Positions 5,051-58,500 of a stretch of DNA of 64,000 nucleotides are shown here, piece by piece. The translations under genes and the position numbers were made by a program. Origin of the DNA: an uncultured Spirochaetales bacterium (GTDB lineage Bacteria > UBP6 > UBA1177); contig CACYHH010000001.1 of NCBI GenBank assembly GCA_902774115.1, forward strand, positions 248,001 to 312,000, in the 5' to 3' direction. The notes below the pieces were generated by a model that searched no databases, was not told the origin of the DNA, and worked only from the letters and a program-made list of their open reading frames with translations. Each line of letters begins with the position of its first letter. Within the stretch, counting starts at the first letter, position 1.

Positions 5051-7522
5051 TTAATCTTTTTTAGGATAGATGACTTTTCTTGGTTTTGAGCCGTCCGCCG
5101 GAGTTACGATCCCTTCTTCTTCAAATCTGTCAACGATCCTTGCCGCGCGGTTGTAACCTAATTTGAATTTGCGCTGAAGCATACTTGCACTGCATTCGCC
5201 CGTATTCATGATGTAGGCGAGGATCTCGTCATAAAGCGGTTCGTCCTCATTCGAGCTTCCCGAAGAATCTCCGGAAGAGCCTCCGTTTTTGCCGCCGTCG
5301 CTCTGGAAACTTTCAAGAATGTCTTCGGGATGGTATTCGCCGCCCGCTTCCTGTTTGATGAAGTCGATGACTGCTTCCATTTCAGGAGTGCTGACAAAAG
5401 CTCCGTGGATTCGCATCGGGATTGATGTTCCGGGCGCTATGTAGAGCATATCTCCGTTTCCGAGCAGGGCGTCCGCGCCGTTTGTGTCGAGAATGACTCT
5501 CGAATCCATAGCTGAAGCGACTTTGAAGGCGATCCTGACCGGAAGGTTACTTTTGATAAGTCCTGTAACGACATCACGAGTCGGCTTTTGCGTCGCGATA
5601 ATCAAATGTATACCGACGGCTCTCGCTTTCTGTGCGATTCTTGCGACTGCGATTTCGACCTCTTTGCCTGCAACCATCATAAGGTCTGCAAACTCGTCAA
5701 TGACGACAACGATAAACGGCATTTTTTTGAGGTGGCTTTCTTCGGCAGCGAGGTTTTTATTGATTTCATTGATCTTCTGGTTGTATTCGCCGATATCTTT
5801 GACTTTGTTTTCAGCCAGAGTCCTGAAGCGGTTGTCCATTTCCATGACTGCCCACTGAAGTGCTTTTGCCGCTTTTTTGCTGTCTACTACGACCGGAAGG
5901 AGCATGTGCGGGATCCCTTCATACATGTTGAACTCGTTTCCTTTCGGGTCGATCATGATGAATTTGACTTCATCCGGCGTGAGAGTGTAGAGAAGGGAGA
6001 TAATGAAACTGTTTATACCGACCGATTTTCCGCTTCCCGTCGTTCCGGCGACGAGAACGTGCGGCATTTTGTTGAGGTTCGCGGCACACGGTTTTCCGGC
6101 GACATCAAGTCCCAGCGCTATCGGCAGACCTTTTGTCGAAGCGGTTTTGAAAACCGGGCTTTCAAGGATCGATTTGAGTCTGATCGTGAGCCTTTGTTCG
6201 TTGGGAATTTCGATTCCGATGTAAGGTTTGCCGGGGATAAAACCGACGACGCGCACTTCTTTTCCGCTGACTGCGACGGTGAGATCCTTCGCCATTCCCT
6301 CGACCTGGCTGACTTTTACCCCTTCGCCGAGCTCTATTTCGTACATCGTTACGACAGGACCTATTGTCGCGCCGTGGACTTTGACCTTTATTTTGTGCTC
6401 AAGGAGCTTTCTTTCGATGATAAGTCCGGTGTTGCTGACTTCCTGTTCCCTTTTTTCGGAAGTTTCAAGGTCTTCGCCGGGAACGAGAAGCGATACATCA
6501 GGCAGGTGGTAGTCTTTGAGTTTTCTCAGAACCGATGTCGTGGCGACCGTCTGGTTAAGTTCGCTCGTGACTACTTCTATCTGCTGGCGAGGTTCTTCAT
6601 GAACTTCTTCATTTTCAGGTGTTTTTTCAATATTTTCGGGTTCTTTTTCTTTCACCGCCTCTTCCGGAATTTCTTCAGGCACTTCTTCCGGTTCTTCTTC
6701 CGGAATGTCGTTGAAACTGTCCATGCCTTTGATTTCGATTCTCGGCGGTTCGGGTTCTTCATCGGCGAGAGAAACGACTGACGGACCGTAGTTGTCGCTG
6801 TCGATTTCGTCCTCGATCTCTTCCATTGATTTGCCGGAATTTATGCTGACATAGTTCTGATCATCGTTTTTTTCTTTCTTTTCTTCAGGCTGGTTCGAAT
6901 TGGCTTCCATAGTGTCATCCGGTCTGTTGTCGGTAAAAAACTCCTTTATAATCAAGCCTGCTTTTGTGCAGAGCTTGAAAAAACTTACGTGGAAGGTGAG
7001 AATCATGAAAAGTATAGCCCAACCGGCGAAAAGAAGGATGAATCCGGTTCTTCCGATATAGATTTCAAAAAATTTCTGATATAAAAAATGTCCTGCGTAA
7101 TTAGCCTTGTTTGAAGAAAAAGTGTCCGTTATCATTGACAAAAACGGAAGGAGTATTACGAAATTCACGATATTCAGCAGGAGATGCTTCCAAAGTTTCT
7201 TTTTGAGGAAAAAAATCGCGACGAAAGCTATGATCCCGAGCGGAATATAGAAAGAAACGATGCCGAAAAGGTTGTCGAGAACATGCGCGCAGTCGTAACC
7301 GAGCGAGCCTGTGAAAAAGTTCTCCTGAATGATTTTACGGCCTGAAGCCTTTGCGGAATAGTATGAAACGAGAGAAATCAGCGTGAAAATCGTAGGAACT
7401 GCCAGAATGCATGTAACGATTTCTCCGGTGTATGAGTTCTTTTCGACGGTTTTTGTTTCTTTTGTATCTTTGCTTTTTTTCGGTTTTTGCGTTTCTGTAT
7501 TCGGTTTATTTTTTTGAGACAC
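5051..7522 (-). CDS. ftsK: DNA translocase FtsK/SpoIIIE
   Basis: The product is 823 aa. The chosen start is GTG at 7522, because GGAG lies 6 nt upstream; an upstream TTG at 7552 has no ribosome site. Four hydrophobic segments occupy residues about 35-180 (septal membrane anchor), followed by a long Glu/Pro-rich linker. Then come the alpha/beta domains, with Walker A GTTGSGKS near residue 490 and Walker B VVVIDEFADL near 604. A C-terminal gamma winged helix (DEILAYIMNTGECSASML... to the end) reads KOPS-type DNA. FtsK pumps chromosome termini through the division septum and activates XerCD. It is the last gene of the pheS-to-ftsK run and overlaps the upstream lipoprotein gene by 17 bp. Confidence 0.95.
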   Translation of the reverse strand: MSQKNKPNTETQKPKKSKDTKETKTVEKNSYTGEIVTCILAVPTIFTLISLVSYYSAKASGRKIIQENFFTGSLGYDCAHVLDNLFGIVSFYIPLGIIAFVAIFFLKKKLWKHLLLNIVNFVILLPFLSMITDTFSSNKANYAGHFLYQKFFEIYIGRTGFILLFAGWAILFMILTFHVSFFKLCTKAGLIIKEFFTDNRPDDTMEANSNQPEEKKEKNDDQNYVSINSGKSMEEIEDEIDSDNYGPSVVSLADEEPEPPRIEIKGMDSFNDIPEEEPEEVPEEIPEEAVKEKEPENIEKTPENEEVHEEPRQQIEVVTSELNQTVATTSVLRKLKDYHLPDVSLLVPGEDLETSEKREQEVSNTGLIIERKLLEHKIKVKVHGATIGPVVTMYEIELGEGVKVSQVEGMAKDLTVAVSGKEVRVVGFIPGKPYIGIEIPNEQRLTIRLKSILESPVFKTASTKGLPIALGLDVAGKPCAANLNKMPHVLVAGTTGSGKSVGINSFIISLLYTLTPDEVKFIMIDPKGNEFNMYEGIPHMLLPVVVDSKKAAKALQWAVMEMDNRFRTLAENKVKDIGEYNQKINEINKNLAAEESHLKKMPFIVVVIDEFADLMMVAGKEVEIAVARIAQKARAVGIHLIIATQKPTRDVVTGLIKSNLPVRIAFKVASAMDSRVILDTNGADALLGNGDMLYIAPGTSIPMRIHGAFVSTPEMEAVIDFIKQEAGGEYHPEDILESFQSDGGKNGGSSGDSSGSSNEDEPLYDEILAYIMNTGECSASMLQRKFKLGYNRAARIVDRFEEEGIVTPADGSKPRKVIYPKKD

Positions 7523-9077
7523 GGTAAACTCCGATAGAAAGTGTTTTATCAAAATTTTTATATTCTTTGTCGTAAAGCGGCATCAGTCTGCCTTCATTGG
7601 AAATTTCGGTTTTTACAGAAATCGATCCCCAGCTGTCGCCGTCGCCGATTTTTTCGAAGATTTTGTGTATCGGTTCGAAACCTTTTGCTACAAGCGATTT
7701 TTCAATTTTTTCAAGCGTTTCTGCCGCATTGCCGCTGCGGATGACGAAAGAAACGATCGAGGTGTCGTTTATTTCGGGGTCGCCGAAAAGCGCCTTGAAA
7801 CCTGAGACTTCGGAAATGTTGGCAACAGGAGTCGACTCTTTTATCGTTCCTCCTGAAAAAAGATAGAGATTTTCAGTTGTTTCACCGGAAACAGAAACGT
7901 TTCCCGAACTGAAAAACGAGTTTCTGACCGCTTCGAAATCGACAAACTGCTTTTTATTTTCGAGGTCTTTGCCGCCTAAAAAAGTCTTGTCGGCAAACAC
8001 AAGTTTTTTCGCGATTTTGAGAGAAAGAAGGTTTGCGTAAAGGGTGTCAGGATATGTTTCAAGCTGCTTTTCCGAAGAGAGAACCCACAGAAAAAGTGAT
8101 TCCGGATCTGTCACCGGAACCGAAAACGAAAGTTCTCCAGAAAAAAGATAAAGCTCAGGAATTACTGAAGAAGATGCGAAATTAGGAGAGTAGAAAGAGC
8201 CGCTTTCAAAAGGGAGCTGATGGCTGAATGCAAGAGAATATAAGTATTTCAGCGCGACTTCTTCCGAAACGGGAATATTTGCCGCACCGGACTTGAAAAT
8301 TATTGTGTTTTTGCCGTTTTCAGAACTGTTTTTCGTGACGGAAGTTTTGTTCCAGCCTCTTTTTTTCATGCTGACTTCGGCTTTTTCATCTTTGCATAAA
8401 GCTAAAATTGCGAAATCTCCGGGAACAGGCTTGATAGTATTTTCAAAGTCGATTGACGAATAAAGAAAAAGGGCGATTTTCCATCTTCCCTGAGTGTCTG
8501 CCGGAACATTGAGTATGATTCCGTTTCCGCGATCTGTTCCGAAAGAGTACCGTACTCCGATATTGTCGAGATAGTGCGAAAGATAGAGCATTTTTGTATT
8601 CCAGCCTTTGAACGAAAGCCCTTCTTCAATGGTTTCTGCTGCCGGGAGTTTATCTGTAAAACGTGTTCCATCGTGGATCTTTTTTATTATTTTCCCTGAA
8701 TTTTTTATTCCGTAAAGCGAAGAACTCTCTTTGTTGAAATATGCTTTCAAAAGATAGTTCGCGACTTCGTTCTGCGTATTTTCGGCAGATTCGGTTGAAA
8801 AATCGGGTTCTTTGTCTAAAAACCAGCAGCTTTTAAGAAGCGTTGATTTTTTGCTTAAAACGTTGATCCCGCTTTTTGAAAGGGATTCGGAATAACTTTC
8901 AGCAGCCTTTTCAACATCGCTCAAAGCGGCATTTGAGGGCAGTTTTGAAAAGTGGAAGCAGAGTTCGTAAAAATCAGGCGAATCTTCTTTTTCCACCTTT
9001 TCATTTTTGTTGCAGCAGACGAAAAAAAGGGTCGTCAAACAGATGAAAAGCAAAATTCTTTTGATCAGTAGTTCCAT
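7506..9077 (-). CDS. Putative lipoprotein of unknown function
   Basis: The product is 523 aa with an N-terminal hydrophobic segment ending in FFVCCNKNE, which looks like a signal peptide with a poor lipobox; anchoring by one of the two cysteines is possible. I do not recognise the family. The body is mixed alpha/beta with repeated Ser/Gly/Asn-rich turns and a phrase (ENLYLFSGGT / PELYLFSGEL) that occurs twice, hinting at an internal duplication. It overlaps the ptsI 3' end by 13 bp and ftsK by 17 bp, so it is translationally coupled to both. The position invites a role at the cell envelope during division, but nothing in the sequence shows it. Confidence 0.7.
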   Translation of the reverse strand: MELLIKRILLFICLTTLFFVCCNKNEKVEKEDSPDFYELCFHFSKLPSNAALSDVEKAAESYSESLSKSGINVLSKKSTLLKSCWFLDKEPDFSTESAENTQNEVANYLLKAYFNKESSSLYGIKNSGKIIKKIHDGTRFTDKLPAAETIEEGLSFKGWNTKMLYLSHYLDNIGVRYSFGTDRGNGIILNVPADTQGRWKIALFLYSSIDFENTIKPVPGDFAILALCKDEKAEVSMKKRGWNKTSVTKNSSENGKNTIIFKSGAANIPVSEEVALKYLYSLAFSHQLPFESGSFYSPNFASSSVIPELYLFSGELSFSVPVTDPESLFLWVLSSEKQLETYPDTLYANLLSLKIAKKLVFADKTFLGGKDLENKKQFVDFEAVRNSFFSSGNVSVSGETTENLYLFSGGTIKESTPVANISEVSGFKALFGDPEINDTSIVSFVIRSGNAAETLEKIEKSLVAKGFEPIHKIFEKIGDGDSWGSISVKTEISNEGRLMPLYDKEYKNFDKTLSIGVYRVSKK

Positions 9078-13550: not shown

Positions 13551-13578
13551 ATATTACTGATAAATATCTATTTTTCAA
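13551..13578 (-). promoter_or_regulatory. Promoter of the pheS-hprK-PTS-ftsK operon
   Basis: On the minus strand: TTGAAA (13578-13573), a 16-bp spacer, TAATAT (13556-13551), then TTCCGCCCG and GC-rich sequence. A T-tract and AGGTGG lead into pheS. Confidence 0.65.
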
Positions 13579-13594: not shown

Positions 13595-15100
13595 CTATTC
13601 TTTAAACGGGCAGATGCCTGTTTCTTCGCAGTAACATTCCCAATCGCGGATAATTGCGGCAGATCTGACCTGGTAGCTTTTTATTGTTTTCCAGAGATGC
13701 CACTTTTTCCAAAAGACATTGTATCCCATGGCATCATCAGCTCCCACAGAAAATACCCTCTCTTCAGGGCAGTATTTTTCCCCGGTGTCAAAACGGTAGA
13801 AACAGCCTTTGTAATTCTTGAAATACAAGAGTTCGTTTCCCCGCAGCATTTGAATGTTTTCCGGTCCGATGGAGGCGGATTTCGGCGAAAATTCATATTC
13901 TTTGTATTCCGGATTGTCCGGATCGCTCAGGTCGACTTCAACAAAAAACGACTGCACCTCACGCTCACTGTACGGTAGCCACCATGGGGAAGAGTTATCC
14001 GAGATTTTTTGCATGATATAAACAATACGGTGCTCGTTTTCAGCGTCTATACGGACAGAATAGGCTTTTTCATCAGAGCCGTATTCGGTTTTTCTGTTGA
14101 TTTTCAGGCAGTCGTCAGGAGTTGACGGATAGTTTTTAAGATCGCAGTAGTAAACTTTTCCGTTTTCTAAAACTGCAAGATGATCTCCGACAATATTTCC
14201 TTCCCCCTTATAATTGATGAATCCGAGACTGTGCCACTTCCAGTCTGCGGTCGAAGCGTATCGCAGATCAGTGTTCGTGTAGGGGAGAAGAGCCCAGTTT
14301 TTGCCTGACAGGGGCGGATATTCGAGCTTTCTGCCGCGGCGGGTTATCAATTCATAGAAATATCCTTTGTCTGTTTTGAGAATAGAGATGATGAAAGTGT
14401 TTTTGTCTGCCGGTGAAACATCGTAAATTTCGACTATGTATCTGTTTTCATTGAATGCCAGATGGATCGGATTGCCGCCTAAAACCGTAAACCTGTCTTT
14501 TTCTATGTCGTATTCTACGATGTAATAATCAAACATCAGCATTCCGGCAGTTCCGTCATAAATCCCGTGTGACCATACCTCTTCCGGAACTGCAGAATAA
14601 TCGCCGATACTCACTATTCTGTCGCAACTGCTGACAAGAGTATCAAGGGTTTCTTTTGTTTTTGCTCCGGCATCGGTCAGTTCGCACGGCCACGGATAGC
14701 ATTCGTATTTGTATTCGGGATGTGATAAATACTTGTTGTACCGCTCCCAGTTTCTCCATTCCCAGATGTTACGGACACACTGGGGGTCGTTTTCTGTCGG
14801 AGTGTCGCAGCCTGGGCGGCAGAAAGTGATTCTCCCTTCGGAATAAAAAGGAAAAGGTGTTTTTGCCACATTTTTTTCGTCGCGGAGATTGAGACACTCG
14901 GCTTTTTCAGAAGTATCCTCTTCTGTCATTTCATCGGAATCTTCTTCATAATCGTCATCATAATCGTCATCGGGTTCCGTGTCGTAAAAACCGGCATCCT
15001 CATCGGCAGGCGTGTCAGAATCATCGGAAGTATTGGAGGATGAGCAGGAAATTAATACTGAAAATAATGAAATGAATAATAAAATCAGTAGCTTTTTCAT
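13595..15100 (-). CDS. Cell-surface lipoprotein with acidic linker, function unknown
   Basis: The product is 501 aa. The signal peptide ends in a lipobox (SVLISC, Cys19), followed by a Ser/Asp/Glu linker up to residue about 65 that resembles the linkers of the neighbouring EGF/DUF1566 lipoproteins. The remainder is a globular, Trp/Tyr-rich domain with scattered cysteines (CRPGCD, CYPWPC, CYCEETGIC) and repeated short beta-strand phrases such as VLENGKVYYCDL, loosely like a beta-propeller. I do not recognise a named family. It is transcribed away from the three large lipoprotein genes. Confidence 0.75.
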   Translation of the reverse strand: MKKLLILLFISLFSVLISCSSSNTSDDSDTPADEDAGFYDTEPDDDYDDDYEEDSDEMTEEDTSEKAECLNLRDEKNVAKTPFPFYSEGRITFCRPGCDTPTENDPQCVRNIWEWRNWERYNKYLSHPEYKYECYPWPCELTDAGAKTKETLDTLVSSCDRIVSIGDYSAVPEEVWSHGIYDGTAGMLMFDYYIVEYDIEKDRFTVLGGNPIHLAFNENRYIVEIYDVSPADKNTFIISILKTDKGYFYELITRRGRKLEYPPLSGKNWALLPYTNTDLRYASTADWKWHSLGFINYKGEGNIVGDHLAVLENGKVYYCDLKNYPSTPDDCLKINRKTEYGSDEKAYSVRIDAENEHRIVYIMQKISDNSSPWWLPYSEREVQSFFVEVDLSDPDNPEYKEYEFSPKSASIGPENIQMLRGNELLYFKNYKGCFYRFDTGEKYCPEERVFSVGADDAMGYNVFWKKWHLWKTIKSYQVRSAAIIRDWECYCEETGICPFKE

Positions 15101-15201: not shown

Positions 15202-15229
15202 TTGAATTTATTTTCAAAATTCCTAAAAT
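15202..15229 (+). promoter_or_regulatory. Promoter of the first DUF1566 lipoprotein gene (duplicated block)
   Basis: TTGAAT, a 16-bp spacer, TAAAAT, then ATAACG and a T-tract. The 46-bp block 15202-15247 is identical to 20552-20597 ahead of the third paralogue, so the promoter itself has been duplicated or homogenised. Confidence 0.65.
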
Positions 15230-15264
15230 ATAACGTTTTTTATTTGTCGTCTCAGGAGGAACTC

Positions 15265-18200
15265 ATGAAAAAACTCCTTCTTTTACTTATCGCGCTGATA
15301 TTTTTAACCGTTTCATGCAGCAGTTCGAAAAAAGCGGAGAACGATGTTGATATTCTGCCGGATGAGGATGCGGTGGATGAAGATACCAATATTATGCCGG
15401 ATGAAGACTCGGCTGATGAAGATATTGAATTCGTTGTGTTTGGTTCCTGCGAACCGAATCCTTGTGAAAACCTTGCGAACAGTGACGGAACATGCAGCGG
15501 AAAAAAGAACGGCGGCTTTGAGTGCGGCTGTATTGAGAGCTACTTCTGGAACGGCAAAGAATGCGTGAATCCTTGTGAAAATGTTTCCTGCAGTCAGTTA
15601 AATCATGCTTCGGGAACCTGCAACCCGAAAAACGCTCTCGCATTTTCATGCGATTGTGATGAAGGCTATTTCTGGGGTTATCTGGGGTGCAAAAGAATAG
15701 CTTTTCCCAATTTCTGCACGGAATCCAATGTCTGCTACAGCGACAGCTATACTGACTGTCCTGATCTACACTATGCAAAACTCGGATACTGCATAAAACA
15801 CAGCCTTTCAACAGACGAATCTGTCGCTGATGAGCCTGTCGTTGTGGACGATTACCTGAAAATCGAGTGGATGCCCGACTTTTCAGACAGTGCTTACACT
15901 TGGTATGAGGCTGCCGAATACTGCGAAAAACTTGAGTATGCGGGACATGACGACTGGCGACTTCCAACGACTCAGGAACTGATGTTTATAGACAATGTAT
16001 CTTCCGAAAACAAAGTACTCGATTTGTGGTCTTCAACAGAAGATGTCAAAAACGAATCTTCGGCGTGGATTTTAGACTTCAATAGAAACTGGCACATTCG
16101 GAATAAAGAGAATTTCAGATCAGCTTATTTCCGATGCGTCCGAGGCGAGCCTGTAAATGAAACAGTTTCCTTCAACACGCTTGGAAAAGTCAAAGAAGAA
16201 GTTGCTTTCGACTATAAAAACGGACTTGCATGGCAACTGAGCGGCAGCGTAGCGGACTCATGGGAGAAAGCTCTGGCATATTGCGAAAATTCTTCTTACA
16301 GCGGATTTTCGGACTGGAGACTGCCGAACATTAACGAACTGGCGTCGCTTGTAAACCATGCCAAAATCAACCCAGCGACAGATTTGCCTCTGAATTTGAC
16401 CAAAAACTTTTCATGGACATCGACGACAAGATTCGTTAACGAAGTCAATGTTGTAAATTTCAGGAACGGGGAACTCAACATTTTTTATAAAGATGAATAC
16501 TTGTCTGTTTACCCGACAGACAACTGGGCGAATATTCTATGCGTCAGAAACGAACCATGCAAAAAAGGCTGGTTCTGGGACGGTAAAAAGTGTGTCATTT
16601 CGCCATGCATTGACAACCCGTGCAAAAACAAAGAACATTCCGACGGTGTCTGCTACCTGAACGACTTTGAAAGCCATTCGTGTGGCTGTATTGAGAGCTA
16701 CTTCTGGAACGGCGAGAAATGTGTTTCTCCGTGTGATCCTAACAGTTGCGAAAACGATAAAAATTCAACAGGCGAATGCGCTGCTTTAAGCGTTGATTCC
16801 CATAAATGCGGCTGCAACGACGGTTACTTCTGGAACGGAGAAAAGTGTGTAGATCCTTGTGCCGGAATCTCTTGCAATCAGTTTGAGCACGGTACCGGAA
16901 AATGCAGAACATACAACGCCTTCACGTTCAGATGTGATTGTGATGAAGGTTACTGGTGGTGGGGAAAAGAAAAAGGCTGCACTGCTCAAAAACCCGCGGC
17001 AATGAATATCTGCACGGGTCAGAACAGATGCTTTGACAACGGAAAAGAGATTGCATGTCCGGCAGAAGGCGAGGAGTTTTTCGGTCAGGATGCACAGTAT
17101 GCAAGGCTGGGCTACTGTGTTCCGCAGAGTTTTTCGATTGACGAAACCGTCCCTGACGAACCGGTTGTAGTAGATAACAATACCGGTAATATATGGCAAA
17201 GAAAAATTCCTCCGGTAGAAGAACTTTACATTGAAGATGTCAAAGCATACTGTCAGGATCTTGTTTACGGAGGTTATGACGACTGGAGACTTCCGTCAAT
17301 GGAAGACTTCATGACTATCGCCGATTATGGGAAATACAATCCTGCGCTTGATACTGAATATTTCCCGGACTCCGGATCATTCTGGACGTCGACATTGACA
17401 ACGGAAACAGATTATAATGTCGCCATCTATGGTCTTACTCAAAATTATTACACCATATTTGATTTCGATGGAGCCTCGACACATTATGCTGTTACGCGCG
17501 AATTCGACTACTTAACAGGAGATAGAAGTTATCCCCATTCCTTCAACATCCGCTGCATCAGAGTAGGGAACTTTCCGGCTTCCAAATATCACTTCATCTC
17601 AGAGAGTTTCGGAGAAAAGGTCATATGGAACAACCACAACAATCTGATTTTTGCGAAAACCGATGAAAAATATACATGGAAAGAAGCTCTGAAATACTGC
17701 TCCGAGCTTGATTACGCCGGAATTTCCAACTGGAGACTTCCCAACATCAAAGAACTGACTTTGAATTCGTTCGGCGGAGCACGAACTTCTACAACAAATC
17801 CGGCGGATCAGACTTCAGACTACTCAGACCTGCCTTACAATCTGTCTGCAAAAAATGAAAAATTCGCCGACACTTTATGTGTGACAGACGATCAGTGCAA
17901 AGACGGAAAATTCTGGAACGGAACAAAATGCGCGAAAAACCCGTGTGCAGACGATCCGTGCCTCTCAATCTCTTATTCTGACGGATTGTGCATAGTTGTG
18001 GACGAAGAAAATTTCGCCTGCGGCTGTGTTGATAACTACTATTTCTGGAATTATGACAAAAAGGAATGTCTCAGATCTTGTTATAACAATCCGTGCTATT
18101 ATGATGAAAATTCTGATTACGAGTGCTACGACGATAAAGATGTGGGTTATTACTGCGGTTGCAAGGAAAATTTTTCATGGGATCCTGAAAGCCGCAAATG

Positions 18201-18498
18201 CATCTTTGACTGCAATACGAATCCGTGCCAGAACATGGAACACAGTGACGGAAAATGCCATGAAAACGGAAACGAAGGATCCTATTGCGGCTGTGTTGAA
18301 GGATATGCATGGTTTCCGCATGCCTGTCTCGAAGACCTCTGCAACCCGAACCCATGCGAAAATATGGCCAATTCATACGGAACATGCGAGCAGAAATACT
18401 ACCAAACCAACCTTGGCTACGATATTTATTACCGCTGCAGCTGCATAGAAGGTTATTCGTGGAACACAAAGTATGAAGAATGCAGAAAAACGAAATAA
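15265..18498 (+). CDS. Large modular lipoprotein with EGF-like and DUF1566 (Lcl C-terminal) domains
   Basis: The product is 1077 aa, starting at the ATG after CAGGAGG. A lipobox (TVSC) is followed by SSSKKAENDVDILPDEDA, a mature N-terminus shared with the next two genes, and an acidic Asp/Glu linker. Modules in order: EGF-like pairs (pattern NPCxNxxxSxGxC...CxCxxGYFWNGxxC); two DUF1566 units with the hallmarks YCExLxYAGxxDWRLPxxxEL, WSST and RCVR; more EGF units; the cassette NICTGQNRCFDNG...FFGQDAQYARLGYC; two further DUF1566 units; and five C-terminal EGF-like units. DUF1566 folds are related to lectin-like/formylglycine-enzyme-like domains and occur in surface proteins. A role in adhesion or polymer binding is inference. 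Confidence 0.85.
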   Translation: MKKLLLLLIALIFLTVSCSSSKKAENDVDILPDEDAVDEDTNIMPDEDSADEDIEFVVFGSCEPNPCENLANSDGTCSGKKNGGFECGCIESYFWNGKECVNPCENVSCSQLNHASGTCNPKNALAFSCDCDEGYFWGYLGCKRIAFPNFCTESNVCYSDSYTDCPDLHYAKLGYCIKHSLSTDESVADEPVVVDDYLKIEWMPDFSDSAYTWYEAAEYCEKLEYAGHDDWRLPTTQELMFIDNVSSENKVLDLWSSTEDVKNESSAWILDFNRNWHIRNKENFRSAYFRCVRGEPVNETVSFNTLGKVKEEVAFDYKNGLAWQLSGSVADSWEKALAYCENSSYSGFSDWRLPNINELASLVNHAKINPATDLPLNLTKNFSWTSTTRFVNEVNVVNFRNGELNIFYKDEYLSVYPTDNWANILCVRNEPCKKGWFWDGKKCVISPCIDNPCKNKEHSDGVCYLNDFESHSCGCIESYFWNGEKCVSPCDPNSCENDKNSTGECAALSVDSHKCGCNDGYFWNGEKCVDPCAGISCNQFEHGTGKCRTYNAFTFRCDCDEGYWWWGKEKGCTAQKPAAMNICTGQNRCFDNGKEIACPAEGEEFFGQDAQYARLGYCVPQSFSIDETVPDEPVVVDNNTGNIWQRKIPPVEELYIEDVKAYCQDLVYGGYDDWRLPSMEDFMTIADYGKYNPALDTEYFPDSGSFWTSTLTTETDYNVAIYGLTQNYYTIFDFDGASTHYAVTREFDYLTGDRSYPHSFNIRCIRVGNFPASKYHFISESFGEKVIWNNHNNLIFAKTDEKYTWKEALKYCSELDYAGISNWRLPNIKELTLNSFGGARTSTTNPADQTSDYSDLPYNLSAKNEKFADTLCVTDDQCKDGKFWNGTKCAKNPCADDPCLSISYSDGLCIVVDEENFACGCVDNYYFWNYDKKECLRSCYNNPCYYDENSDYECYDDKDVGYYCGCKENFSWDPESRKCIFDCNTNPCQNMEHSDGKCHENGNEGSYCGCVEGYAWFPHACLEDLCNPNPCENMANSYGTCEQKYYQTNLGYDIYYRCSCIEGYSWNTKYEECRKTK

Positions 18499-18510
18499 TT
18501 GGAGAATAGC

Positions 18511-20316
18511 ATGAAAAAACTCATCATTCTTCTGATTTTATCAGCATTTTTCACCGTTTCGTGCAGCAGCTCGAAAAAAGCTGAGAACGATGTCGATATT
18601 CTGCCGGATGAAGATGCAGTTAATGAAGACGCTGAAGATGAAGAAGCGGCGAAACCCGATAAAGAACAGAATGATGAGGAAGAACTTGAAGATGATGCGG
18701 AATCATCGGTCCCCGACAACGGTTCAGATGAAGATATATGCGCTCGATGCAAAGATTTGCCTCATTCAACTGGAGCATGCGTATTTGATGGAATTGCGCT
18801 TTTTTGTGTTTGCGAAGAAAACTACTATTGGAGTGATTCCGCATGTATTACTCCTTGTGATCCGAATCCTTGCGGAAACGACAAAAATTCAACCGGAGAA
18901 TGCAAGGCTCCTGATATCGACACGCATGAATGCGTCTGCATTGACGGTTATTTCTGGGATGGTGAAAAATGCCTTAATCCGTGTGACGGAGTTTCCTGCA
19001 GTCAGTTTGAGCACGGTGCAGGAAAATGCAGAACAGATAACGCTTTCACGTTCAGATGCGACTGCGTTGAAGGCTACTGGTGGTGGGGAAAAGATAAAGG
19101 CTGTCTCAACAAAAAACCTGCGGCGGTGAATATCTGCACAGGTCAGAACAGATGCTTTGACAACGGAAAAGAGATTGCATGTCCCGCTGAGGGAAAAGAT
19201 TTTTTCGGTCAGGATGCACAGTTCGCAAGACTTGGTATTTGCAAGCCTCAGAGTTATTCAATTGACTATTCAGTAGAAAACGAACCTATCGTCGTTGACA
19301 ACAATACAGGCATGATGTGGCAGCAGAAAATTCCGCCGTTAGAAGAACTTTATATTGAAGAAGTTAATGGATACTGCAACAATCTGGTCTACGGCGGCTA
19401 CGATGACTGGCGGCTCCCGTCAGTTACCGATTTTGTAACCATCACCGATTTCGGCAGATACGATCCGGCGATCAAAACCGAATACTTCCCTGACTACGGA
19501 TCATTCTGGACAAGCAACAAGAGAGTGAACCGCTGGACTGGCGGCGATCTCCCGCACATTTATTATTATACTTATTATTACAGTTCGATATTTGATTTCA
19601 AGGAACCTCTAACATTTCAGACAACAACATTATCATACTATGAGGAGAACACTCTATTATATCAAGATTACCATAATTATCCTCACTCTTATAATATCCG
19701 CTGTGTCAGGGGGCAAGGCACAGGAAACAGTACTTTTACATCCAAAACTTTCGGAAAAAATCTGATGTGGAATTATAATAATGACACTATTCTTGTGAAA
19801 AAAACAGGAGCAAAGCATACATGGCAGGAAGCTCTGAAATACTGCGCGGAACTTGATTATGCCGGAATTTCAGACTGGAGACTGCCAAATGTCAGAGAAC
19901 TTTACCTGACTGGTAATACAGGAGTCCATTCATCAACAACAAAAATGGCTTCGCTTGATTCCGACTATTCCGAAATATCAAAAGAAACAACTTTAAAAGA
20001 AACAAGAAGGAATAATACCTTATGCATTGCCAATGACTCATGCGAAGACGGCAAATTCTGGAATGGTGAAAAGTGCGCGAAAAATCCGTGTGCAGGAAAT
20101 CCCTGCAAATCCGACAGCAATTCCAACGGAACATGCACAGTTCTGGACGAAGAAAACCATTTATGCGGCTGCAAAAAGGGTAGTTGGGACAGTGAATTAA
20201 AAGAGTGCATCGTGGACGAAACACCAGACGCTGACACCGTCGAAACACCGGATGAAACTCCGGATGAAACTCCGGACACAGACACAGATGAAACCCCCGA
20301 TTCCGACGAAATTTAA
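18511..20316 (+). CDS. Modular EGF/DUF1566 lipoprotein, second paralogue
   Basis: The product is 601 aa; the ATG at 18511 lies 12 bp after the previous stop and follows GGAG, so it is co-transcribed with the first paralogue. It has the lipobox TVSC and the shared SSSKKAENDVDILPDEDA start. Modules: acidic linker, three EGF-like units, the NICTGQNRCFDNG/FFGQDAQFARLGIC cassette, two DUF1566 units (DDWRLPSVTDF, SDWRLPNVREL), one EGF-like unit, and an acidic C-terminal tail of repeated ETPD units, which is unusual because the acidic repeats are otherwise N-terminal. The block 18860-19058 differs from 20831-21029 of the third paralogue at only two positions that I count. Confidence 0.85.
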   Translation: MKKLIILLILSAFFTVSCSSSKKAENDVDILPDEDAVNEDAEDEEAAKPDKEQNDEEELEDDAESSVPDNGSDEDICARCKDLPHSTGACVFDGIALFCVCEENYYWSDSACITPCDPNPCGNDKNSTGECKAPDIDTHECVCIDGYFWDGEKCLNPCDGVSCSQFEHGAGKCRTDNAFTFRCDCVEGYWWWGKDKGCLNKKPAAVNICTGQNRCFDNGKEIACPAEGKDFFGQDAQFARLGICKPQSYSIDYSVENEPIVVDNNTGMMWQQKIPPLEELYIEEVNGYCNNLVYGGYDDWRLPSVTDFVTITDFGRYDPAIKTEYFPDYGSFWTSNKRVNRWTGGDLPHIYYYTYYYSSIFDFKEPLTFQTTTLSYYEENTLLYQDYHNYPHSYNIRCVRGQGTGNSTFTSKTFGKNLMWNYNNDTILVKKTGAKHTWQEALKYCAELDYAGISDWRLPNVRELYLTGNTGVHSSTTKMASLDSDYSEISKETTLKETRRNNTLCIANDSCEDGKFWNGEKCAKNPCAGNPCKSDSNSNGTCTVLDEENHLCGCKKGSWDSELKECIVDETPDADTVETPDETPDETPDTDTDETPDSDEI

Positions 20317-20551
20317 ACTACAAGTTTTTTATCACCGCAGATATTCCGTAAAGTGGAACATTTATGAGCAGTCTTTCTTTCTGGTTTTTTTGTCATCAGA
20401 AAAAACTGAATTTAGATAAAAAACAACAGATTGATTTTACGAGATTTTTTCGCTTAAACCAGCAATTTCAATGACCATCTTTCGATAGTATGCTACATTT
20501 TTAATGACCATTTTCAGTCAATATGCAACATTTTTAAGGAGCATTTTTGAG
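20317..20551. other. Intergenic region between paralogues 2 and 3
   Basis: This is AT-rich, with no convincing gene. It contains two adjacent imperfect 33-bp repeats (20470-20535) just upstream of the duplicated promoter block. Confidence 0.5.
20470..20535 (+). repeat. Two adjacent imperfect 33-bp repeats
   Basis: Copies 20470-20502 and 20503-20535 both begin AATGACCAT and end CAACATTTTT or CTACATTTTT. They sit 16 bp upstream of the -35 box of the third paralogue, so they could be operator-like or remnants of duplication. Confidence 0.55.
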
Positions 20552-20579
20552 TTGAATTTATTTTCAAAATTCCTAAAAT
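20552..20579 (+). promoter_or_regulatory. Promoter of the third DUF1566 lipoprotein gene
   Basis: TTGAAT, a 16-bp spacer and TAAAAT. It lies in the 46-bp block identical to that at 15202-15247. Confidence 0.65.
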
Positions 20580-20613
20580 ATAACGTTTTTTATTTGTGTC
20601 GCAGGAGATCCTC

Positions 20614-22632
20614 ATGAAAAAACTCCTTCTTTTACTTATTGCTCTGATATTTTTAGTTGTTTCGTGCAGCAGCTCGAAAAAAGCTGAAAATGATGCCGAT
20701 ATTCTGCCGGATGAAGACGGAATCAATGATGAAGATGCTGATTTGGACGACGAAGTAAATGTTGATGAGGATAAAACCGATGATGAGGAGCCGGACGAAG
20801 ATGCAGATTACGATGAAGACAATCCCTGCAATCCGAATCCTTGCGGAAACGATAAAAATTCAACCGGAGAATGCAAGGCTCCTGATATCGACACGCATGA
20901 ATGCGTCTGCATTGACGGTTATTTCTGGGATGGTGAAAAATGCGTTAATCCGTGTGACGGAGTTTCCTGCAGTCAGTTTGAGCACGGTGCAGGAAAATGC
21001 AGAACAGATAACGCTTTCACGTTCAGATGTGATTGTGATGAAGGTTACTGGTGGTGGGGACAGAACAAAGGCTGCATTGAAAGAAAGCCGGATACCGCAA
21101 ACATCTGCACCGGCCAGACAAAATGTTATAACACGGAAGAGGAGATCGACTTCCCTGCACAAGGAGAAGACTTCTTCGGGCAGGATGCATACTATGCCGA
21201 TCTCGGATACTGCGCACCGCATAATTTCTCGATAGATGATTCGGTTGAAAACGAAAAAACAGTCATTGACAACAATACAGGTCTTGAATGGCAGCAGACA
21301 TTTTTCTCATACTCGGAAAATTACTGCGAAGATCTCATTTACGGCAGTCACAACGACTGGCGGCTTCCCACAATACTGGAACTTCAGACGATCGTTGACA
21401 ACGGAAAAGCCACTCCTGCGATAGATACCGCATATTTCCCGAATACACCATCTGCAAATTTCTGGACTTCGTCATGGAGCTATTCTGTATCAACTTCAGG
21501 AGGACCGCACGATCCCTGGCAGATGGATTATACAGCAATGTATTGGAGAGTTGATTTTTCTATCGGTATGTCGTGGTATTCATCTTCGCCCATGAATGCT
21601 TATGTCCGCTGCGTCAGAGGGGAAAGAACAGCCGACGTTACATTTGATATCTTTGTAGGCAGTAACGGGAAAAATGCCGACATAACTTTCGATTCACAAG
21701 GAACTTTGATCTGGCAGGCAGGAACAAAATCCTACGGATGGCAGAATGCACTTAAATACTGCAAGAATCTGAAACTTGGAGGACTTTCCAACTGGAGACT
21801 TCCGAACAAAAATGAGCTGATCAAGTATTTTTCTCCATGCGGCTCATATAAGGTCGATTATTGGACGGGTTATGATCACTCCTACTATCCGGCAAAATAT
21901 CAATGGTCATCCACATCATTGCACAACAATCCGAAAGAAGCATGGGTAGTCCAGTACAAAGACTGTCTGGGAGGTCTTCATCTTGACGTCCACAAAGACA
22001 AAACAGATGCCTTCCATACGCGCTGTGTCACCGACAATCCCTGTCCCAAAGGCGAAATATGGAACGGTGAAACCTGCGTGAAAGAAAACCCGTGCGAACC
22101 GAACCCATGCAAAGAGATGTATTACATAACCGGAAACTGCATTATAAGCTCAAAAGAAACTAACGGCTATTTCTGCGAATGTTCGGAAAATTCGTTCTGG
22201 AGTTCCGATGAAAAGAGATGCATCCGAACCTGCGAAGGAAGAAACCCGTGCATATACGATGCATCACATACCGACCAACAATGCTACGAAGACGAAAAAG
22301 GGGAATTCTACTGCGGCTGCGTTGAGCTTTACTACTGGAACTCAGAAAAGCACACTTGCTCTAAAAAATGTGACTCCGATCCGTGTGCCGACAAAGAAAA
22401 CAGCGACGGACACTGTTCCGATGACACAGAACACGGTTATGTGTGCGGCTGTATCGACGGATATGTGTGGTTGCCGTTTTATGATATGTGCTACGAAAAT
22501 TTGTGTATTTCTGATCCATGCGAAAATATCGAAAATTCCGACGGAACATGCGAAATAAACGAATATCTCGGTCGAAAATGCGGATGTATCGAAGGTTATA
22601 CCTGGAATTTCTCGGATGGAGAATGCCGATGA
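20614..22632 (+). CDS. Modular EGF/DUF1566 lipoprotein, third paralogue
   Basis: The product is 672 aa from the ATG after CAGGAG. The signal peptide with lipobox VVSC and the first codons nearly match the first paralogue. Modules: acidic linker (to residue about 70), two EGF-like units, the NICTGQTKCYNTEEEIDFP/FFGQDAYYADLGYC cassette, two DUF1566 units (NDWRLPTILEL...FWTSSW, SNWRLPNKNEL...WSSTS...RCV), then four or five EGF-like units with spacing CxxNPC and CGCxxxYxW. Its stop codon overlaps an ATG (ATGA) that begins a degraded fourth copy. It shares a nearly identical 199-bp block with the second paralogue. Confidence 0.85.
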   Translation: MKKLLLLLIALIFLVVSCSSSKKAENDADILPDEDGINDEDADLDDEVNVDEDKTDDEEPDEDADYDEDNPCNPNPCGNDKNSTGECKAPDIDTHECVCIDGYFWDGEKCVNPCDGVSCSQFEHGAGKCRTDNAFTFRCDCDEGYWWWGQNKGCIERKPDTANICTGQTKCYNTEEEIDFPAQGEDFFGQDAYYADLGYCAPHNFSIDDSVENEKTVIDNNTGLEWQQTFFSYSENYCEDLIYGSHNDWRLPTILELQTIVDNGKATPAIDTAYFPNTPSANFWTSSWSYSVSTSGGPHDPWQMDYTAMYWRVDFSIGMSWYSSSPMNAYVRCVRGERTADVTFDIFVGSNGKNADITFDSQGTLIWQAGTKSYGWQNALKYCKNLKLGGLSNWRLPNKNELIKYFSPCGSYKVDYWTGYDHSYYPAKYQWSSTSLHNNPKEAWVVQYKDCLGGLHLDVHKDKTDAFHTRCVTDNPCPKGEIWNGETCVKENPCEPNPCKEMYYITGNCIISSKETNGYFCECSENSFWSSDEKRCIRTCEGRNPCIYDASHTDQQCYEDEKGEFYCGCVELYYWNSEKHTCSKKCDSDPCADKENSDGHCSDDTEHGYVCGCIDGYVWLPFYDMCYENLCISDPCENIENSDGTCEINEYLGRKCGCIEGYTWNFSDGECR

Positions 22633-22679
22633 AAAAACTCCTTCTTTTACTTATCACTCATTTATTGGAAAACCGTTAA
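22629..22679 (+). pseudogene. Truncated start of a fourth DUF1566 lipoprotein gene
   Basis: The first 27 bp from ATG (codons MKKLLLLLI) are identical to the start of the first paralogue. Homology then ends abruptly and the frame closes after 16 codons. It overlaps the upstream stop as ATGA. This looks like a recombination or deletion breakpoint within the signal peptide. Confidence 0.6.
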
Positions 22680-22715
22680 ATTTTTCAAAAATTTTCTTGG
22701 AAAACCGTTAAATTT
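22665..22715 (+). repeat. 19-bp direct repeat at the breakpoint
   Basis: TTGGAAAACCGTTAAATTT occurs at 22665-22683 and again at 22697-22715, 32 bp apart, exactly where homology to the DUF1566 genes is lost. Confidence 0.6.
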
Positions 22716-22818
22716 GTGCTATTTCAGCTGTGATTTCAGGTGTTTTTACTTTTTGAGCAAAAATGCAGAAGTTGATGAAAATTTCATTTATAAAATAGAT
22801 TCGGATATTTTGAAGTAA

Positions 22819-23004
22819 AAATTCGAAGACGGAAGATACAGCGAATTAGGCGATGCCGGCTGGTTATGGTCTTCCTCTGTTGTGTCCGGTTATTCCCATC
22901 TGGCATGGGGTGTCAATTTCAATTACGCTGAGTTGTATTACGAAAGTAAGTCGAACAGTAGTAACGTCTATGTCCGTTGTGTAAGACAGGACGCAGTTTT
23001 CTAA
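22819..23004 (+). pseudogene. 3' remnant of a DUF1566 lipoprotein gene
   Basis: An open frame of about 61 codons ends at TAA 23002-23004 and has an in-frame stop just upstream (22816-22818). It encodes GWLWSSSVVSGYSHLAWGVN and then NVYVRCVRQDAVF, the typical C-terminal half of a DUF1566 unit (WSS...HAWxVxF...YVRCVR). No start codon or ribosome site precedes it. With the truncated start at 22629 it is the debris of a fourth paralogue. Confidence 0.65.
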
Positions 23005-30941: not shown

Positions 30942-30969
30942 AGTGCGGTTTTTTTATAGGGAGAGAAAG

Positions 30970-32316
30970 ATGAAGTTTTCAGCTTTGATTTCAGTTTTGT
31001 TCCTTTGCTTTGTTTTTGCAGCATGCGCTTCGGAAGATGATGAGTCATGCGTCACTGTTTTGGACTGCCCTGACGGTTATTCCTGTGTAAATTCGGTCTG
31101 CCAGCCTCCGGTTGCGGTAAACGATGCAGATTCTCCGGATGGTGTTGAAAATCAGGATTCTTCGGAAACTTCTGATTCAGGTGATCCCGAAGATGTGGAA
31201 CTCGATGAATACGAAACACCGATAATAGGCGACGATGATGATGTAACAGCTTCATCCGGTTGTCCGAATGACTGCAGCAATTTCGGTGAATGTAATATCG
31301 AAACAGGAAAATGCACATGCGATGAAACTCATGCCGGCGAAGACTGCTCGGAATGTGCCGAAGGTTATCATTTGGAAGCGGAAGGTGACGATGAAGACGG
31401 AAATCCAGATGTCCGCTCATGCGTAGTCAATCTGACATGCGATCCGAATCCGTGCAACAACAACGGATGCAAAGAAGTAGGAGATACAGTCAAATGCACA
31501 TGCACGGCTTCTTCACACCTCGGCGGAAGATGGTGTGAGAAATGCGCTGACGGTTATATGCTGAATAATGCCGGAGTTTGCAAGGAAGATTGTTCTCTTA
31601 AAACCTGCACTCCTCCGCAGAAATGCGGAATCGACTATGCAACCAACGAAGCCAGCTGCAATGAGTGCGAAAACGAATATTATACCGGAACGGACTGCAA
31701 AAGCTGTGATCCGGTTCATTTCTGCAACGGTCACGCAACGGCGTGTGTTGTTGAAGGAGGCACGGAAAAATGTACATGTGAAGCCGCTTATCAAGGAGAA
31801 AAATGCAATACCTGCGCTTCGGGATATTTCCAAAGCAACGGCAGCTGCATAAAAAATTGCGATGCGAACAAGTGCTTTAAAACATATCAATGTACGGGAA
31901 CTTCCATGTTCGGGTTCGAGACAACGGCTACAGTCAGCGGACACGGCACATGCAGCAATACAACAGGCGAATGTATGTGCGATGCAGGATGGTTGACGGC
32001 AGGTTCAGGTTCCGGAGAAACTGTTGAGTGCGGTATCCTTACTGTTTTGGAAACGCTTAACAATGTCGAATGTACGATCTGCGATAAAAACAATCCGCCG
32101 TCGCAGTATGCCTCAACTGGTTGTCCGCAGAGCTTGACTGGAGATACTTCACTCTGCAACTCGATATATTCATTTACTTTCTGCGGTATGAGCGGAACAT
32201 GCTACTACGAGCCGACAGGAGCACATCAGCTTTACTGCGTATGCAACGACGGTTATCATCTTGACAACGGTGACAAATACAGCGGTTACTGCGAAGCTGA
32301 TTCAACAGGCGAATAA
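30970..32316 (+). CDS. Cys-rich EGF/laminin-like lipoprotein
   Basis: The product is 448 aa with lipobox FAAC (Cys19), then an acidic Ser/Asp/Glu linker (residues about 40-95). The rest is a string of EGF/laminin-EGF-like units such as CSNFGECNIETGKCTCDETH with GEDCSECAEGYH, and KCTCEAAYQGEKCNTCASGY. The spacing CxC...GxxCxxCxxGY is close to laminin-type EGF repeats. It is predicted to be a disulfide-rich surface protein; the ligand is unknown. lexA follows with its own promoter. Confidence 0.8.
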   Translation: MKFSALISVLFLCFVFAACASEDDESCVTVLDCPDGYSCVNSVCQPPVAVNDADSPDGVENQDSSETSDSGDPEDVELDEYETPIIGDDDDVTASSGCPNDCSNFGECNIETGKCTCDETHAGEDCSECAEGYHLEAEGDDEDGNPDVRSCVVNLTCDPNPCNNNGCKEVGDTVKCTCTASSHLGGRWCEKCADGYMLNNAGVCKEDCSLKTCTPPQKCGIDYATNEASCNECENEYYTGTDCKSCDPVHFCNGHATACVVEGGTEKCTCEAAYQGEKCNTCASGYFQSNGSCIKNCDANKCFKTYQCTGTSMFGFETTATVSGHGTCSNTTGECMCDAGWLTAGSGSGETVECGILTVLETLNNVECTICDKNNPPSQYASTGCPQSLTGDTSLCNSIYSFTFCGMSGTCYYEPTGAHQLYCVCNDGYHLDNGDKYSGYCEADSTGE

Positions 32317-55562: not shown

Positions 55563-58500
55563 TTACTCCGATCTTACGCACATAACAGGAAGGTCGTAGC
55601 TTCCGCCGTATATATTCCTGTAGTCTTTATAGAACTGAGCAAGTCCACCGTTTGCAGTCATGAAAAGCCATGTATATTGGGGATCATTTGCAATAATCGT
55701 ATCTGCAGACCAGAAAGTTGTCTCCATTTCCATATCCGGGAATGCTGAAGCCGGGTGGTATCTGTCGTAATCAGCAAGCGAAGCAAATTCATTATTGTTT
55801 GGCAGTCTCCAGTCAGAGTACCCGGCATAAGTCAGGTTTTCACAGTAATAAAGAGCGTCCTGCCATATAACAGCTGTACCGTATGTCTTCTGCCAGATGA
55901 GTCCTGTTGTGGAATCTGTTACAATCTGGTTGCCGTTTCTTTCCGAAACGCTGAGTTTAGCCCCTTTCATTTTGTTGCCTCTGACGCACAAAACTCTATT
56001 GTACATTGTTTCGGATACGCCCATCTGGCTCGGGAATCCCATCTGATAGTTGTCGTACAGTCTCCATCTTTCGTCTTTTTCCGGTTCTGCATAATATTTT
56101 GAAGTCAGCAGTTTTATGTTGGGATTATTTTTCAGGTCGGGGAAATAAACCGTATTTACTGCCGTTTCATTGTAATTTACAATCGAAAGAAGCTCATTCG
56201 GTTCGGGCAGTCTCCAGTCGTCATGTCCGCCGTAAACAAGATCCTCACAGTATGCGTCTGCTTCAGTCTCTTCAACCTGTGTATCAGAAGAAATTTTTCT
56301 CTGCCATTCCAGACCGGTGTTGTTGTCGATAACAGTCTCCTCGTCCGGAACTGAACTGTCTATCGAGAAGTCCTGAGGTGTGCATTTTCCGAGTGCCGCG
56401 TACTGGGTGGGCTGTCCGTAGAAGTCATTATTTTCCGACGGGCAGGATATTATCGCCGCATCGTTAAAGCACATTTCCGTCCTTGTGCAGATGTTGCCGA
56501 TTGTAAGCTGTTTTCTGCCGGTGCAGCCGATACCGTCCCACCAGTAGAAACCTTCATTGCATTCACATTTGTATTGCATTGCACTTTCAGGAATGCAGTT
56601 TCCGTTTGAATTCGGTTCGCTTGCACATGAACTGCTGTCGCACGGATTGACACATTCGTTTCCGTTCCAGAAATAGTTCTCTTTGCATCCGCAGGAATAG
56701 TCAGTTATGCCAGAAGCTGTGCAGACACCGTTTGAGTTCGGGTCGCTTCCGCAAGGAGTTGCACTGCACGGTGTCACACATTCGTTTCCGTTCCAGAAGT
56801 ATCCTTCATCACATTCACAGGAGTGTATTGTCAAACTTTCCGCAATACATTTTTCTGTGGAATTAGCGACACCGTTACAGATTCCGGCGCTGCACGGAGT
56901 TGCACATTCTGTTCCGTTCCAGAAGTATCCTGCGCCGCACAATCCTGCTCTGACACAGCGGACACCGGCTTTTACATTTTTTTCTGTATCACCTGGTATT
57001 CCGGTGCCGAATTCAAGATAGTACGCATCACTGCCACCCTGATATGATGTTGAAGACCAGAATGCGCCGGAGGAGGGCATAGCAGGAAAATCTGAAGCCG
57101 GATATCTTTTGTCATGGTTTATCAGCGATTCAAGTTCGTTTTTGTTGGGGAGTCTCCAGTCAGTATGACCTGCAAGTTCAAGGCCTTCGCAGTAAGAAAG
57201 AGCGTTTTCCCATGTTTTGTTTACATAAGATTTCTGCCATACAAGTCCTGTTGTAGAATCTGTCACAGTTTCATCTCCGTTGTCCGTGAAACTGCCTTTC
57301 TGCAATTCGTTTCCGCGGACACAGATTATATTATAATCGCTGTAGTCCGAATCTTTGCTGTAATCGAAAAAGTATCCGTCCCACATGTTTACAATAAACG
57401 CTTTGTCTTCGTCGTATTCTTCAGAGGTCCACAATCTTTCATTTTTCAGGTTATATATATCCGGGAAATAATTTATATTTACCCCTTTCATATTCATGTA
57501 AGCTAAATCGAGAATTGTCCAAAGTTCATATCTTGTAGGAAGTCGCCAGTCGGTTTTGTTTCCGTAATTGAGATCGTCGCAGTAGTTGAGAGCGTCTTCC
57601 CACAAATATTTGGTCTCAGGCATTCTGTACTGCCATTCGAGTCCCAAATTATTGTCAATGACAATTTCCTGATTTTCTATAGAAGCATCAATCGAGAAGC
57701 TTTGGTGTGTACAAGTGCCTTTTGCTGCATAGTTGGCATCCTGACCGAAGAAATTCATCCCTTCTTTCGGGCAAGTGATTTTGTATCCGTCTTTGTTATA
57801 ACATGTTCTCTGACCTGTGCAGATGTTGCCGAAAGCAGGTTTTCTGTTTATACAGCCGATTTCTCTGCCCCACCAGTAGTAGCCTTCATTGCAGCCGCAG
57901 ACATAGTCATCCCATGCAACAGCATTGCAGGTTCCTGATTTTGCATTTGCAAATCCGCCGCACGGATCGTCTTCGCACGGTGTCATACACTCTCTGCCGT
58001 GGCGGAAGTGGTCGTTGTCGCATCTGAACTCGCATGAGTTTGAGGCATAAGCGGAAGTGTAGTCCGCATCATCATAATAATTGTTGAAATAATTAGGTGT
58101 TGTTCCCGGTGCCCAGTTGTAGCCGTTCCAAGTCTGCTCGACAGTTGAGCCTGCAATCCAGACAGCATTTGCCGGAAGATCGTCACAGTCAACTGTTTGA
58201 GTGTCAGGAGTACATTGTGCACTCTTCCATGAGTAATGTTCTTTGCAGTTGTGGCGGCATTCAGTCGGTGAAAATACAGTTCCGTGCGTCGAAGTTGTCT
58301 CCGGAAGCCACTGCCACTCGGATGCTGTTTCATTCCACTGCCACTGCTGGACTATCTGACCGTTCGGATTAAGCCATTCCGCGTTCGCAGGAAGATATCC
58401 GGAGCAGCTTGCAAGCCTTGTAGCTCCGACGCATTGGTTCGTATCTCTCTCGTAAACAAAGTTTGTGTCACATTTGAAATGGCATTCCTTGTTAGTCGGA

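Follow-up and report, generated by a model that had tools for sequence, protein, structure and literature searches.

Arrays of recombining surface lipoproteins are known mainly from pathogens. The PFam54 (CspA) array and the lipoprotein recombination hotspots of Borrelia consist of head-to-tail surface lipoprotein paralogues that occupy one site, vary in number, include pseudogenes and are exchanged between lineages (PMC11389397), and in the vls system of the same genus the ends are conserved and the middle is variable (PMC11499132). Here we describe an array in an uncultured bacterium (genome G000, 2.51 Mb, 99% complete), found in a stretch of 64,000 nucleotides (G000:C1:248001-312000, hereafter the window, in whose numbering positions are given). 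The array consists of three intact tandem open reading frames (ORFs) on the + strand, which encode the predicted lipoproteins A, B and C, and it lies at a variable chromosomal site between pheS and a PpdK-like gene. The host is most likely an uncultured rumen bacterium of the candidate phylum UBP6, and named relatives found through its array proteins are, among others, the rumen assemblies UBP6_UBA1209, UBP6_UBA1177 and RUG12558. The array is strongly recombining and real, and is a variant of the known recombining-lipoprotein kind. It differs from PFam54 in its protein family and in residing on the chromosome of a rumen bacterium, whereas the Borrelia arrays are carried on plasmids of tick-borne pathogens; moreover, exchange across species appears to be commoner here than in PFam54, for which few unambiguous cases are described (PMC11389397).

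The domain carried by the array, Lcl_C (PF07603, DUF1566), is that of the Legionella adhesin Lcl, in which it is C-type-lectin-like, binds glycosaminoglycans and serves in adhesion (PMC11162425). Lcl is a collagen-stalked trimer with one such domain, whereas here the Lcl_C domains come in tandem pairs with EGF-like stalks and predicted lipid anchors. The same domain family, with its variable lectin-like fold, is the commonest annotated target of diversity-generating retroelements (DGRs) in a survey of human metagenomes (PMC4159848). The features of the locus are as follows.

15202..15247, + strand: 46-bp promoter-like block before gene A (TTGAAT-16-TAAAAT), exact copy at 20552
15265..18498, + strand: gene A, 1077-amino-acid lipoprotein (anchor, two EGF-like modules, two Lcl_C domains, three EGF-like modules, two Lcl_C domains, EGF-like stalk)
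15838..16509, + strand: Lcl_C domains 1-2 of A (profile match at C1:263838-264509)
17164..17790, + strand: Lcl_C domains 3-4 of A (profile match)
18001..18498, + strand: C-terminal EGF-like stalk of A, similar to G011
18511..20316, + strand: gene B, 601-amino-acid lipoprotein (ORF with Lcl_C match)
18860..19058, + strand: 199-bp converted block of B, made up of two EGF-like modules and differing from 20831-21029 at 2 positions
19057..20301, + strand: body of B, 88% identical to G001:C60:1995-3242
20552..20597, + strand: second exact copy of the promoter block, before gene C
20614..22632, + strand: gene C, 672-amino-acid lipoprotein (anchor, two EGF-like modules, two Lcl_C domains, four EGF-like modules)
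20737..20843, + strand: linker of C, 99-100% identical to G011:C66
20831..21029, + strand: 199-bp EGF-like block of C common to B, within which the stretch shared with G001 has its 5' breakpoint
20851..22683, + strand: body of C shared with G001 (5 differences in 1779 coding nucleotides, dS 0.006)
21256..22029, + strand: pair of Lcl_C domains in C; the model (pLDDT 87) includes flank and spans 21094-22029
22629..22666, + strand: fourth array gene reduced to its start codon and signal sequence, a remnant also present in G001 and G004
22667..22715, + strand: direct repeat GGAAAACCGTTAAATTT, two copies, near the 3' breakpoint
22828..22986 (about), + strand: remnant 3' end of an Lcl_C gene, with an intact relative at G000:C3:121115

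The window was compared with 14 congeners, one genome per species, which together with G000 make 15 genus genomes; PpdK was located in all congeners and the DNA upstream of it was set against the window. The array is a mosaic, parts of which have recently been swapped with related species, and this is strongly supported, among other evidence by gene C. Positions 1554-3494 of contig C17 in G001 match window positions 20851-22791 at 99.0%, and the nonsynonymous and synonymous divergences of the shared body are 0.002 (dN) and 0.006 (dS), whereas PpdK, only a few hundred bases beyond the block, has a dS of 0.69 between the same two genomes. The left edge of the block falls inside the EGF-like block common to B and C, and on the right the block ends around the remnant of the fourth gene and its 17-bp repeat. 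Just to the left of this block the linker of C is near-identical to G011, a genome with a core identity of 86.8% to G000, and gene C is therefore mosaic, with at least two other species holding close matches to parts of it. Compared with the sister genome G004, the Lcl_C part of C is ~57-83% identical and the C-terminal EGF-like stalk 95-97%, so that the two genes read as different heads on a common stalk. The stalk of A is ~88-94% identical to G011 while most of A is ~65-81% identical to any relative, and the match of the B body to G001 begins at the end of the converted block.

Among the loci compared, exchange is not confined to G000. Array windows of G011 and G014 have dS values of mostly 0-0.06 against a core dS of 1.11, those of G011 and G013 0.02-0.11 against 1.31, and parts of the array in G008 and G004 0.03-0.07 against 0.95, while G013 and G008 share 1.5 kb at 96.7% compared with 85.4% in the core. 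Several of the large exchanged blocks start 60-260 nt past the lipobox Cys and end between the stop codon and +153, either at the stop or within the 5' cassette of the following gene. Relative to PpdK, an identity excess of at least 8 points was seen in 7 of 88 array pairs versus 3 of 424 pairs of other ORFs from the same loci (Fisher P 2.8e-4, an indicative value), and a deficit of 12 points or more in 40 of 88 versus 12 of 424 (P 1.8e-24, likewise indicative); in this control the AAA_14 genes were set aside after they had been seen to behave like array genes. For 44 of 46 array genes the nearest body is in another species. A search of G000 for near-identical silent copies of the locus found none elsewhere in the genome, the best non-self matches being 87% in the cassette and 67-78% elsewhere, and the reservoir therefore appears to be other species.

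The gene content of the site varies with species. In G014, G006 and G009 it is empty, as homology to the window ends at 13578, next to pheS, and restarts at 22997, just before PpdK; the stretch absent from these three also holds a lipoprotein gene of unknown family, divergent from the array (13595..15100, - strand), for which no Pfam match was found. G004, the closest genome to G000 by PpdK (94.1% identity), carries at this site an AAA_14/DUF4143 ATPase gene and two different Lcl_C array lipoproteins, and in G001 the site is probably split over two contigs, C183 on the pheS side and C17 on the PpdK side. Window by window, G004 comes out closest to G000 in 40 of 74 cases in the core but in only 2 of 73 in the array. 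Variable paralogues at a syntenic site together with incongruence between genes and species are the behaviour, though not the homology, of a PFam54-like recombining tandem array. Module exchange and gene conversion, proposed in the preliminary description of this DNA, are thus strongly supported by exchanged blocks of near-zero dS and by gene content that differs between species, and across species we find the opposite of uniform divergence along a strictly conserved locus. Nine species have a further recurrent array site, which follows FHA, AroE-like and RsmB-like genes and holds a variable number of array lipoproteins (L073, L054, L056, L062, L064, L065, L068, L071, L090).

Within the array, conversion between neighbours is evident at the scale of modules. 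The B and C blocks at 18860-19058 and 20831-21029 differ at exactly 2 of 199 bp, close to the two or so first estimated, whereas shared blocks in 2000 codon shuffles had a mean length of 27 bp and a maximum of 51 bp (P<0.0005). Third-position identity is 100% in the core of the block; over the 100 bases that follow, identity is 75%, and beyond them 33-67%. Homogenisation of the 5' cassettes within genomes was considered and rejected, as cassette identity is 0.716 within and 0.719 between genomes (permutation P 0.61).

The 46-bp block had also been taken as a trace of conversion. It does occur exactly at just two places, before A and C, while by chance its 34-base core would be expected 0 times, and a third copy with 3 mismatches is found at another array (G000:C4:139082); however, the block is conserved before array genes in at least seven species across the genus, and is therefore better read as a functional promoter. 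Similarly, the debris downstream of C is real and comprises the start and signal sequence of a fourth gene plus the 3' end of another, distinct Lcl_C gene, but it is not fresh: the start remnant is common to G000, G001 and G004 and the 3' remnant to G000 and G004, and remnants common to several species therefore point to old decay. The 17-bp direct repeat GGAAAACCGTTAAATTT, in two exact copies within 22667-22715 (chance expectation 0.03), is partly kept in G001 and G004.

As proposed at the outset, the three proteins share anchor and linker, each starting MKKL...SCSSSKKAEND with a signal peptide and a lipobox Cys (MKKL...VSC|SSSKKAEND) recognised from sequence. Their scores for Lcl_C are 217 (A), 101 (B) and 134 bits (C) against a Pfam gathering cut-off of 34.9, while the cysteine spacing of the remaining modules fits EGF but their Pfam EGF-family scores are below the cut-offs, and we term them EGF-like only. 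A profile of the array Lcl_C domains matched the Protein Data Bank (PDB) chain 8q4e (E 1.2e-5), which we take to be the Lcl C-terminal domain; gene C alone gave no direct match to PDB sequences. The model of its two Lcl_C domains is confident, with a predicted local distance difference test score (pLDDT) of 87 and a predicted template modelling score (pTM) of 0.86, and its top PDB matches in Foldseek are receptors with C-type-lectin-like domains (CTLD), although weak (best E 0.09, none at or below 0.001). Based on the domain, a role in diversifying adhesion or ligand binding is likely. A profile search of G000 yielded 150 Lcl_C matches, and the domain is present in 14 of 14 congeners, with at least dozens per genome.

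The giant protein encoded at 55.6 kb, suggested earlier as a donor or recipient of array modules, was rejected as a recent exchange partner. Its gene is a distant relative whose DNA similarity to the array is mostly 65-86%, and at best 90% over 50 bp. In the N-terminal part of this protein (window 55563-63998, - strand) the hexapeptide [GA]GDPIM occurs 12 times, and another lipoprotein-like protein, at 30943-32316, has true Pfam EGF-family matches.

Based on our data we propose that the locus is a tandem modular array whose bodies are swapped by way of the cassettes and EGF-like modules, chiefly from congeneric species, a reading that we hold with good confidence. Each gene opens with a conserved 5' cassette, in which a signal peptide is followed by the CSSSKKAEND anchor and an acidic linker and to which leading genes add a conserved promoter; in the body that follows, paired Lcl_C domains are combined with EGF-like spacers. 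The head-to-tail recurrence of cassettes and EGF-like modules would offer homology for recombination, by which bodies could be exchanged entire or one module at a time, array members added or removed and truncated remnants left behind. New bodies would come mainly from other species of the genus, probably by DNA uptake and recombination, with conversion between neighbours, as in B and C, as an added source of change. ComEC, found in G000 and 13 of 14 congeners, permits natural transformation, without showing it. The outcome would probably be a changing set of surface binding proteins. The comparisons themselves show the mosaic structure, conversion at the scale of modules, near-zero dS to other species and turnover of gene content at one site, while surface exposure, the transfer route, the enzymes of recombination, ligand binding and the selective advantage are inferred.

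Several points weigh against this proposal. Its main weakness is the reliance on comparison genomes that are fragmented, with one per species, and of which the nameable ones are metagenome assemblies, so that a chimeric contig could underlie any single case. Divergence was gauged mainly against a single gene, PpdK, the exchange pairs are statistically non-independent, which makes their P values indicative, and array genes and ORFs were sorted by sequence patterns rather than by a curated model. Some breakpoints lie inside bodies, and block ends are not always at cassettes. In addition, dN/dS of the exchanged genes is 0.13-0.35, which is several times that of PpdK and bears no sign of positive selection; such values denote purifying selection overall, and immune-driven antigenic change is therefore not indicated.

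The arrays are repetitive and contigs of several relatives end inside them (G001:C183, G011:C66, G013:C8), raising the concern that assembly or binning fused reads or contigs from co-resident species at the conserved EGF and cassette repeats. We consider such an artefact quite improbable, as the G001 block is flanked on both sides by ordinary interspecies divergence on one 14.3-kb contig, the G000 locus lies within a contig of 670 kb, and separate low-dS blocks occur in several further species pairs. A mobile element, perhaps tied to the AAA_14/DUF4143 ATPase genes, could instead have transferred the island as a whole. Such genes are found within arrays or next to them, at the pheS site of G004 and on other contigs (L058, L062, L059, L057, L001, L065), they are unusually similar between species (excess of at least 8 in 8 of 16 pairs), and the pheS-PpdK site is empty in three species. 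The exchanged stretches, however, are parts of genes with sharp internal edges, and no AAA_14/DUF4143 ATPase is present among the ORFs of the window locus, where no systematic search for recombinases was made; transfer of the whole island thus seems unlikely. Purifying selection acting unequally on the modules, with no recombination, is favoured by the conservation of some parts, such as the signal sequence and promoter, across the genus, and yet the synonymous sites of the C body are near-identical to those of G001 while those of PpdK, a much more conserved protein, have diverged, which leaves this explanation scarcely credible.

The conserved 5' end, variable body and debris also recall programmed antigenic variation as in Borrelia vls, with one expression site and silent promoterless cassettes. 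Here, unlike in vls, all three genes are intact, the promoter block precedes both A and C, and donors appear to be other species rather than silent copies, of which the search of G000 found none; we regard a vls-type system as very unlikely. Mutation of the array genes by a DGR is suggested by the congeners, eight of which have reverse transcriptases and seven of which have template and variable repeats (TR and VR) that differ almost exclusively at template adenines. Unlike the DUF1566 targets of DGRs, the array varies by exchange of segments, as do A, B and C among themselves; G000 is without a reverse transcriptase (no RVT_1 match), and it has an empty site where G004 carries its DGR. A DGR at the array locus was accordingly rejected as extremely improbable. 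In the seven congeners, whose DGRs are mostly at Lcl_C genes, the reverse transcriptase has a YVDD motif and, wherever the target gene is complete, it is an Lcl_C gene whose 3' end forms the VR (L115, VR 7166-7305, TR 8046-8185; also L113, L114, L116, L117, L118, L119, L120, L121). The eighth, G003 (L112), has a reverse transcriptase but no clear TR/VR pair. The empty site, G000:C3:120695-121541 (L132, L133), corresponds to a DGR of ~5 kb in G004, and G000 Lcl_C genes elsewhere, at C3:27401 and C6:34425, have weak similarity to the TR/VR region.

The recombining array thus provides an uncultured rumen case of module-scale exchange between species ~11-15% apart in a core gene, and its host genome holds 150 copies of a domain which, in relatives, is diversified by retroelements. 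It is tempting, albeit tentative, to suggest that the genus may hold a between-species pool of lectin-like modules, for which the cassettes and EGF-like spacers would serve as recombination handles, the modules moving between species and chromosomal sites, while retroelements hypermutate the same domain family in sister species. If true, two routes of diversification, recombination and retroelement hypermutation, would act on one domain family. This locus offers a concrete system for testing if different species of rumen bacteria have adhesin or receptor modules in common, and if recombination and targeted mutation can replace one another.

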